Assembly: GCA_030038495.1 (NCBI GenBank)
Contig: JASHOV010000100.1
Location: 1 to 56,055 of the forward strand
DNA length: 56,055 bases
Source: Streptosporangiaceae bacterium
GTDB taxonomy: Bacteria > Actinomycetota > Actinomycetes > Streptosporangiales > Streptosporangiaceae
Reading direction: 5' to 3'
Position numbers and translations under genes: made by a program. Every line of letters starts with the position of its first letter. The stretch's first letter is position 1. The notes beneath the pieces are model-generated. The model was not told the origin of the DNA and ran no database searches. It saw nothing but the letters and a program-made list of their open reading frames with translations. Below are positions 5,342 through 55,997 of this stretch, piece after piece.

Positions 5342-5938
5342 CCGGACAAGATCGCGCCTTAATGTAAGCATTCGAGGGCCACGGGCCATGCCGCGTACTT
5401 AAGGGCCTCCGGGCGGGGTGGCTGCCGGTTGCCGACGGCGGAACCCACGGCGGTCGGCATTGCGGGCCTCGGTTGAGCGATACTTCGGCGATTTGCCCGC
5501 TATGTGCGAGGCGGCTCCGCGGCGGCGGGACCTTTGTGCGTGATTGGTGTCGCTGTAGCGACACCAATCACGCACAAAGCCCGCTCCGGGCCCGTGGCGG
5601 CGATCCAAGTCGGTCCGGTAGTTCCCATTTGGCCGGTTATCAGTCGCGTCAGCGCGGGCGGCAGGCAGGCTGCGATGCAGCTCGCGCCGAAACTTACGCA
5701 CGCGCCACGGGCTACAGGTCGCCAAACGCAATGCGAGCCTGCAGCCGGACAGCGGGAGGGCAGTCCGGGAACGGAACCTGCCTGCCTGCTTGTCAGGTGG
5801 CTGCGGTCGTGCGCAGCGGCAGCAGGATGTTGCGTGACCGCGGCGGCCGGATGTCTCCGCGAGCGACCGCGCCATCGAGGATCTCGCGCATAAGCCGGTT
5901 GCGCGGGGTGAACATGTTCGGGCACGCGCCCGCGGCTG
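5342..5938. other. Gene-free region between convergent genes
   Basis: About 600 bp between the DUF397 gene and the end of the ABC importer operon. Open frames exist on both strands, but their translations are Arg/Ser/Pro-rich and show no recognisable domain. The only clear structure is the perfect palindrome at 5532-5579. I see no transposase, RNA gene or promoter I can support. Confidence 0.5.
5532..5579. repeat. Perfect 23-bp inverted repeat with 2-base centre
   Basis: The left arm 5532-5554 (starting CTTTGTGCGTGATTGG) is the exact reverse complement of 5557-5579, separated only by GT. As RNA it would be a very stable hairpin on either strand. It lies 190 bp past the DUF397 stop and 359 bp past the ABC operon stop, so it could be a bidirectional terminator for these convergent units, but there is no T tract on either side. 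Arm composition (about 52% G+C) is lower than the surroundings. Confidence 0.95.
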
Positions 5939-22202: not shown

Positions 22203-22266
22203 GAACAACAGCAAACCACCACCTGATGTCGCAAGAACGACGGCAGGGTACCCACTGCTGTTGTTC
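22203..22266 (-). terminator. Stem-loop downstream of the LLM oxidoreductase gene
   Basis: GAACAACAGCA (22203-22213) pairs perfectly with TGCTGTTGTTC (22256-22266) across a 42-base loop. It lies 20 bp past the minus-strand stop at 22286. No T tract follows, and the loop is long, so termination is only a suggestion. The rest of 22013-22285 holds no gene I can support. Confidence 0.4.
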
Positions 22267-22285: not shown

Positions 22286-23329
22286 CTAGGCCGCCCTCGT
22301 GCCGGCCAGCTCGGCCATCAGCTCCAGGGCGGCGGGCTGGCTGGTGGCGATGTGCAGGCCGGTCGCACCGGACTCGGCCCAGGGGTGGTACCGCTGCCGG
22401 GTTCGCTCCGGGGTCCCGACGAGCGCCTGCTCATCGACGAACTCGTCCGGCACGGCGTCCGCCGCCTCCTGCTTGCGGCCGGCGCGGAACAACTCCTCGA
22501 TCTTCGCCGCCGCGTCACCGTAGCCCTGCTGCTCCATCGCGCGCTTGTGGAAGTTGAGGGTCGGGTGTCCCATCCCGCCGACATACAGCGCGATGCTCGG
22601 CTTCATCGTCCGCAGCGTCGCCGCAACGTCGTCGGTGATGGCCACAGAGACCATGGGCTCGAACGAGAAGCCGGCCCACGACTTGCCGTTCCCGGCGCGG
22701 GCGAAGCCCTCCTCGATCGCAACGCGGAACCGCGGCATCTCCCGCGGGATGAACCGGAGCGGCAGCACGCCGTCGCAGATCTCACCGCACAGCCGCAGCA
22801 TGGAGTCCGAGCCGCTGCCCAGCACGATCGGGATGTCGGACGACGGGTGGAGTATCGACTGCAGCGACTTGCCCAGGCCCAGGGCGCCCTCGCCGGCGTA
22901 CGGCAGCGAGATCTCCCGGCCGTCGTGGGATACCGGGGCCTCGCGCCGGAAGATCTTGCGCATGATCTCGACGTAATCCCGCACCCGCCAGTACGGCCTG
23001 CCCCAGGGCTGGCCGTACCAGCCCTCGACAATCTGCGGGCCGGACACGCCGAGGCCGACGATCATCCGGCCGCCGCCGGCCAGCGCGTCGATCGTCATCG
23101 CCTGCATCGCGCACATCGCCGGCGTGCGCCCGGCGAGCTGGGCAATGCCGGTGCCCAGCCGGATCCGCGATGTCTGCGCGGCAATCCAGGCCAGTGGCGT
23201 CATCGCATCCGACCCGTACGCCTCGGCCGTCCAGACCGAGTCGTAGCCGAGCCGCTCGGCCCGCTGCACCAGATCGATCGGGAAGTTGACGCGGGCGCCG
23301 GAGTACCCCAGTGTCAGACCGAGCCTCAT
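22286..23329 (-). CDS. LLM-class F420-dependent oxidoreductase (Rv3520c-like)
   Basis: 347 residues from MRLGLTLGYSGARVNFPIDLVQRAE (23329), with AAGGGAACGGGAAC upstream; the much longer open frame to 23869 crosses another gene and is not coding. Luciferase-like TIM barrel: RAERLGYDSVWTAEAYGSDAMTPLAWIAAQT, RIRLGTGIAQLAGRTPAMCAMQAMTIDALAGGGRMIVGLG, PIVLGSGSDSMLRLCGEICDGVLPL. These match the Rv3520c group of F420-dependent enzymes linked in mycobacteria with lipid/CoA ester metabolism genes. Divergent from a small membrane gene; a near-palindromic A+T-rich site lies between. Confidence 0.9.
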   Translation of the reverse strand: MRLGLTLGYSGARVNFPIDLVQRAERLGYDSVWTAEAYGSDAMTPLAWIAAQTSRIRLGTGIAQLAGRTPAMCAMQAMTIDALAGGGRMIVGLGVSGPQIVEGWYGQPWGRPYWRVRDYVEIMRKIFRREAPVSHDGREISLPYAGEGALGLGKSLQSILHPSSDIPIVLGSGSDSMLRLCGEICDGVLPLRFIPREMPRFRVAIEEGFARAGNGKSWAGFSFEPMVSVAITDDVAATLRTMKPSIALYVGGMGHPTLNFHKRAMEQQGYGDAAAKIEELFRAGRKQEAADAVPDEFVDEQALVGTPERTRQRYHPWAESGATGLHIATSQPAALELMAELAGTRAA

Positions 23330-23402
23330 GAAGTTCCCGTTCCCTTCGCCCCGACGCATCGCCAGCAGGGTATTGGGCTGCCGCTCTTGACCGCTATCTA
23401 TC

Positions 23403-31305: not shown

Positions 31306-31349
31306 GGATGACGCAGTGAAGAGCACCGGGGCCTCCCTGCTCTGCCTCT

Positions 31350-31415
31350 CAGGGCAGCGTTGGACCCCTGCTGGCCCTTTCTAGGGGCGTGTTTCTCGAC
31401 CCCTGCGGGGCACCC
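31350..31415. repeat. Dispersed ~31-bp repeat, locus A (two diverged tandem units)
   Basis: Unit 1 is 31350-31381 (contains GCGTTGGACC and CTGCTGGCCCTTTC) and unit 2, more diverged, is 31382-31415 (TAGGGGCGTG...TGCGGGGCACCC). The bases just before, with CCCTGCTCTGCCTCTC, may be a third worn unit. The same element is found at 31892-31919 and 55936-55997. Locus A lies between the LuxR gene and the 3' end of the small membrane gene. Confidence 0.75.
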
Positions 31416-31423
31416 GTTCAGCC

Positions 31424-31798
31424 TCAGCGCGAGCTGAAGCCCGGACGCCTGGTCTTATCACGGGGCTGGTCGTCCCAGTCCGCATACGGCCTTTCCGGGA
31501 GGACGATCGAATACACGTAGAACCAGATCCCCGGGAAGATGAGGACGCTCCAGCCGTCGCCCAGCTTCATCCCCGCGATGCACAGGACGGTTCCTGTGAG
31601 CATGGAGCACCAGTGGCGAGGCCTGCGGCGCACGACGCGCATCACGCCCATGAGCGTGAGCAGGACCGCGAGACGCATCCCGCGGCGAAAACGCCGGCTG
31701 CGCCGGATCTGCGTGCGGTTGTGCGACCCGTACCAGTCGGCCGGATGGGCGGATTTGCTCCAGATCACGAGGGTTCCCCGGCGCGCCCGCAGTCTCAT
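31424..31798 (-). CDS. Small membrane protein flanked by dispersed repeats
   Basis: 124 residues from ATG 31798, chosen because GGGAGG lies six bases upstream; the longer frame to 31960 runs through repeat B and has no sense. A basic N-terminal part (RARRGTLVIWSKSAHPADWYGSHNRTQIRRSRRFRRG) precedes three short hydrophobic segments: MRLAVLLTLMGVMRVV, MLTGTVLCIAGMKLG and WSVLIFPGIWFYVYSIVLP. Family not recognised. Both sides carry the same ~31-bp element (31350-31415 and 31892-31919), which is noteworthy. Confidence 0.6.
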   Translation of the reverse strand: MRLRARRGTLVIWSKSAHPADWYGSHNRTQIRRSRRFRRGMRLAVLLTLMGVMRVVRRRPRHWCSMLTGTVLCIAGMKLGDGWSVLIFPGIWFYVYSIVLPERPYADWDDQPRDKTRRPGFSSR

Positions 31799-31891
31799 CG
31801 CAGCCTCCCGCATCTGGCCTTCGCTGCGTGCCTCAATGCTACGCCGATCGGGCCTCCGCGCCGAGGCCGCCGGAACGCCCCGCTGCTCCTC

Positions 31892-31919
31892 TAGGGACAC
31901 CGTTGGACCATTGCTGCCC
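31892..31919. repeat. Dispersed ~31-bp repeat, locus B (single unit)
   Basis: Starts TAGGGACAC and continues CGTTGGACCATTGCTGCCC. 26 of 28 bases match the unit at 55936-55963. It lies between the small membrane gene and the 3' end of acsA, in a 193-bp gap. Confidence 0.85.
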
Positions 31920-55911: not shown

Positions 55912-55935
55912 AGCCAGCGCCCCGACGGTCGCATC

Positions 55936-55997
55936 TAGGGGCATCGTTGGACCATTGCTGCCCTTCTATGGGCAACGTAGGAGCTTTGCTGCCCTTC
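55936..55997. repeat. Dispersed ~31-bp repeat, locus C (two tandem units)
   Basis: Two adjoining 31-bp units, 55936-55966 and 55967-55997, 26 of 31 bases alike, both ending TTGCTGCCCTTC. Unit 1 contains CGTTGGACCATTGCTGCCC like locus B at 31892. Each unit has GGGCA near its start and TGCCC near its end, an inverted pair. Confidence 0.92.

Follow-up and report, generated by a model that had tools for sequence, protein, structure and literature searches.

The best-known REP elements are those of Proteobacteria with RAYT transposases, and REPINs are inverted pairs. REPs are described by Di Nocera et al. (2013, PMC3733652) as lying near gene 3' ends, forming dimers, occurring in some cases within genes, and existing as species-specific variants, with head-to-tail pairs being absent, under-represented or negligible. 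The same paper describes the Rickettsia palindromic elements (RPE), palindromes that are inserted in frame inside protein genes (PMC3733652). The terms "actinobacteria", "streptomyces" and "mycobacteri-" are absent from its main text (PMC3733652), and our search of the mostly open-access literature found no paper on a REP/RAYT, palindromic-repeat or MITE family of this kind in actinobacteria.

The DNA analysed here, referred to as the window, is a stretch of 56,055 nt from a draft genome (G000; 6.59 Mb in 700 contigs, 88% complete, 6.1% contamination). A first-pass annotation of the window had pointed to a family of ≈31-bp repeats located on either side of a small gene at 31424-31798 and again 24 kb away. 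This distribution was reproduced by a search with a 19-mer allowing up to three mismatches, which gave four matches in the window (31358, 31901, 55945 and 55976, all on the plus strand) compared to 0.01 expected in shuffled sequences. A repeat search grouped the same four copies (31347-31376, 31890-31919, 55934-55963 and 55965-55994). The genome-wide search that the annotation had called for did reveal more copies: with the same 19-mer search, there were 61 matches in G000 (27 + 34), compared to two for a reversed control pattern. The repeats are a real, genome-wide family.

When the G000 matches were aligned with their flanks, the core unit proved to be a 25-bp imperfect palindrome, present in dozens of copies. 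As the first-pass annotation had seen in the window, the units occur in tandem, and most copies in G000 are paired with a period of 31 bp. The natural unit is this pair, not the single 31-bp repeat: a 62-bp element comprising two 25-bp imperfect palindromes separated by a 6-bp linker, with the arm pattern GARGGGCA…TGCCC-TTCTAT-GGGCA…TGCCCTTC and the consensus 5'-GAR GGGCA(T/A)CGTTGGACC(A/T)TTGCTGCCC TTCTAT GGGCAACGTAGGAGCTTTGCTGCCC TTC. The two units are direct repeats of each other, each of which is itself nearly palindromic, while the ends of the element form 8-bp inverted repeats (GAAGGGCA…TGCCCTTC). The linker contains CTA, and one strand can fold into either two small hairpins or one long hairpin. 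The hairpins of the main arm type are stable on both strands (z about -4 to -5 relative to base shuffles), and no T-run follows the stem.

A long form of ≈265-300 bp, in which the pair sits at one end of a ≈200-bp tail, was found at 14 places in G000, a count that includes both of two places (C104 and C637) that overlap at contig ends. Some long-form copies have a further unit at the opposite end. In one contig (G000:C148, locus L025, 2001-2315), two long-form copies lie head to tail, ≈259 bp apart, an arrangement which indicates that the long form can amplify in tandem too. With the long form as query, phages gave no match, and plasmids gave no more than two short ones (query bases 200-232).

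The sequence of the G000 unit appears to be peculiar to this genome: a 25-mer search allowing up to two mismatches gave no matches in the genomes of 59 relatives, eight of them congeners. A relaxed 25-mer search found none in viral contigs. The same relaxed search in genome contigs gave 17 scattered single matches in unrelated organisms, which were rejected; the second covariance model described below (R2) found no significant member there (best E = 0.08). A related unit was first met at the end of one contig of the congener G008, and a pattern derived from it matched 11 times in G008 and once in the control. The G008 element is 62 bp long, with the same length and axis as that of G000, but its arms are AACGACA…TGTCGTT. 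Some G008 copies carry further units outside the 62-bp element. Beside a family member at the end of one G008 contig (C300, locus L086), there is a tandem array of ≈30-bp units rich in GCCGCGGTATCTCGGGGCCCCGGCCGTCA (≈215-550).

A covariance model (R1) was built from eight G008 copies alone and run against 34 sources, one of them the window. R1 recovered most of the G000 GGGCA-type pairs, with E values from 5e-7 to 0.02, as well as a window copy at 22204; it missed the G000 copies in L009, L013, L015 and L036 or gave them poorer scores. Among 100 relatives, the R1 matches were confined to genomes of the genus, apart from one weak case in another genus (G066, E = 0.005). This case was not counted, because it is approximately what chance would produce when 91 genomes from outside the genus are screened at a threshold of 0.01. 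The second model, R2, drew on matches from both strands. Since R2 was trained on families that it later counted, only R1 constitutes an independent test. R2 found members in five of the nine genus genomes, namely G000, G008 (≈20 places), G006 (eight), G005 (six) and G004 (one), and gave no match in the congeners G001, G002, G003 and G007. Arms of the sequence AACCACA…TGTGGTT predominate in the G006 copies, which are 62 bp long, and AACGTCATCG…CGATGACGTT in those of G005, which are 60 bp long. Each of the four congeners with members has its own version of the arms, and between species the arms differ more than the centre.

Within the window, the only intact GGGCA-type pair is the 62-bp element at 55936-55997 on the plus strand, which has GGGCA/TGCCC arms and the linker TTCTAT (R1, E = 3e-4; R2, E = 8e-16, the latter a non-independent score, as the training of R2 included copies of the GGGCA type). 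A second member, with different arms (AACAACAGCA…TGCTGTTGTT), is found on the minus strand at 22204-22265, 20 bp downstream of a luciferase-like monooxygenase gene (22286-23359, minus strand). This copy had been overlooked in the first-pass annotation. Its R1 match (40.7 bits, E = 7.4e-8) is independent, because the model was built from congener copies only. The two copies around the small gene are less well preserved. The first is a decayed pair at 31319-31379 (plus strand), matched over its full length by R2 (22.3 bits, E = 7.5e-4), in which the better-kept unit (copy A, 31352-31376) matches the 19-mer with three mismatches. The other (copy B, 31895-31919, plus strand) is a solo or decayed unit, GGACAC CGTTGGACCATTG CTGCCC, with an exact match to the 19-mer and no significant full-length R2 score (≈10 bits). 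The small gene between them had no Pfam match, and nothing ties it to the repeats. A search of the window with Rfam at gathering scores gave no matches. Elsewhere in the window, an intergenic region at 5523-5588 contains a strong inverted repeat with 32-nt arms, 88% complementary and 2 nt apart, that did not match the models of the 62-bp hairpin family.

In G000 as a whole, BLAST with the 62-mer found 36 places, and R2, with strands merged and E of 0.05 or better, found 32. Of the latter, 28 are loci or fragments of the GGGCA type and two have the other arms; the remaining two are C382 and C637. Since the ends of C382 and C637 overlap C308 and C104, respectively, the number of loci is ≈30 rather than 32. 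Decayed or solo copies exist beyond these.

The positions of 55 copies were determined relative to genes called by a simple codon-usage script of our own: 22 lie between genes on the same strand, seven between convergent genes and nine between divergent genes, while three are inside genes and 14 are at contig edges. In the same-strand gaps, 18 of the 22 copies are nearer to the 3' end of a gene (p = 0.004). (Among gaps of at least 70 bp in the window itself, 14 are same-strand, two convergent and seven divergent.) The copies lie mostly just downstream of genes. The family had been thought to be always intergenic, which holds for the 52 of 55 placed copies that are outside called genes and fails for the other three. 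Of 48 protein entries scanned with Pfam, 31 belong to other G000 loci, nine to the window (one small gene being entered in two versions), seven to G008 and one to G005; the families were diverse, with a single transposase, inside the linker of one copy (L017).

The bias towards gene 3' ends and the stability of the main-type hairpins on both strands would also fit intrinsic, bidirectional terminators or 3' mRNA stabilisers, selected at gene ends and spread without transposition. Consistent with such selection, the element at one orthologous locus has been kept in both G006 and G004, with flanks that are 91% identical. However, the stem is not followed by a T-run, nine of the 55 copies lie between divergent genes and three inside genes, and one species has one shared sequence that is absent from congeners, which would be unexpected for terminators that arose independently. 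Selection of terminators or stabilisers is an unlikely origin of the family. The dyad symmetry and 31-bp phasing could also be read as tandem operator sites of one regulator, 25-bp dyads placed three helical turns apart, and a regulator site was among the earlier suggestions. Such sites would not be expected behind genes and, in some copies, inside them, next to genes of unrelated function; neither the sites nor the sequence are conserved in congeners, and the arms are species-specific. A role as operators is accordingly very improbable.

We compared the stems of the G000 and G008 elements (24 and eight copies, respectively) ungapped on their common axis, with the orientation of the G008 copies chosen by the loop sequence. 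(A joint MAFFT alignment, A1, was rejected for pair counts because a gap shifts one arm.) At seven of the 31 pair positions, the commonest pair had changed on both sides. In both species, at least 88% of the copies form the pair at five of these positions (3, 5, 6, 7 and 28); at the remaining two, pairing is weak in one set or both. Within G008, 94.6% of the stem cells are paired, compared to 20-72% for slid partners, and three pairs change on both sides; this number was reached by 23 of 500 shuffles, and the covariation within G008 alone is therefore modest evidence. Between species, the symmetry of the hairpin is preserved through paired changes.

The amplification of the element is species-specific, and a few loci offer a view of individual insertions. 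At L014, an acyl-CoA dehydrogenase gene contains the element in frame, and the G008 orthologue lacks 25 codons at this point. As the two genes differ by a net 75 bp instead of 62, the junctions are not exact. At L019, conserved neighbours are 367 bp apart, compared to 129 bp in G008. At five other loci, the flank beyond the element was unalignable or otherwise different, so that these loci neither support nor oppose mobility. A G005 copy is found in frame between two domains of a siroheme-synthase-like protein, and a third in-gene copy, at L023, lies in the C-terminal tail of a molybdopterin-binding protein.

No flanks matching over five or more bases were found at the ends of the 34 copies examined for target-site duplication. 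This result bears on the possibility that the element is a MITE of a DDE transposase, consisting of little more than its two terminal inverted repeats. The 8-bp terminal inverted repeats are in keeping with a MITE, as is the long form, with the pair at one end and sometimes a unit at the other. Apart from the lack of duplications, however, the centre is less variable between species than the arms, no IS with ends of this kind was seen beside the copies, and the lone transposase beside a copy has its own ends and sits inside the linker. We regard a MITE as improbable. The transposase in question belongs to a ≈1-kb IS (DDE_Tnp_1) in the linker of one pair (G000:C73, junction near L017 1009), with CTAG flanking the IS on both sides; in a near-identical contig (G000:C679, L041), the pair is uninterrupted.

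We favour the reading, with a probability of roughly 70%, that the repeats are a non-coding, REP-like miniature mobile element of ≈62 bp, copied through its hairpins by an enzyme acting in trans. As with REP/RAYT elements, copying would proceed through a single-stranded or cruciform hairpin, and the enzyme would recognise the arms without leaving a target duplication. Insertions that break genes would be removed by selection, so that the surviving copies would be those behind stop codons or in frame in the linkers between domains. In transcripts, the hairpin may have an incidental effect on mRNA 3' ends, and a role at the RNA level is possible. Counting against a mobile element are the nine of 55 copies between divergent genes, the four congeners without a match, the unclean junctions at L014, the modest covariation within G008, the draft state of the G000 genome and the lack of PF01797 matches in G000 and G006. 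A more specific proposal, which we put forward tentatively, is that the family represents a new transposition system of one high-GC genus, in which the four arms evolve in concert in each species, and an undescribed enzyme other than Y1/RAYT recognises the arms and inserts the element without target duplication. A high-GC family with no detected Y1 transposase, head-to-tail pairs and species-specific, compensating arms provides a test case for what copies REP-like DNA without RAYTs, and allows one to ask whether the arm sequence tracks a recognising protein.

The suggestion of a REP-like palindromic element made in the first-pass annotation agrees with the 25-bp imperfect palindromes, the dozens of copies, the 3'-end bias and the stems kept by paired changes. 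REPs are, in general, palindromic units of 20-40 bp with many extragenic copies; here, the unit is 25 bp, with 61 19-mer matches and 52 of 55 placed copies extragenic. The linked RAYT-type (Y1) transposase that might have accompanied it was not seen in the G000 draft: PF01797 had no matches in G000 (88% complete) or G006, the two genus genomes searched, while the same search was positive in 18 of 61 genomes of the family. According to Di Nocera et al. (2013, PMC3733652), the CGTC REP families are likewise without a dedicated transposase.

Like the GTAG/CGTC REPs, the G000 family consists of short palindromes in many copies, mostly dimers near gene 3' ends, with some copies in genes and variants between species. 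It differs from them in its head-to-tail pairs, its 25-bp units, its fixed 6-bp linker and the lack of the GTAG/CGTC tag beside the hairpin, as no shared flank motif was seen by eye in 34 aligned copies. The RPE resemble it, by description and not by sequence, in being in-frame palindromes within protein genes, although only three of the 55 copies are inside genes here. As in the REPIN/RAYT system, the model proposed for the G000 element is one of hairpin doublets copied as a unit, but its units are tandem instead of inverted. Since the tags are absent, the pairs are tandem and no Y1 transposase was detected in G000 or G006, we class the family as a REP-like element, a variant of the REPs, and not as a member of the RAYT/REPIN system.
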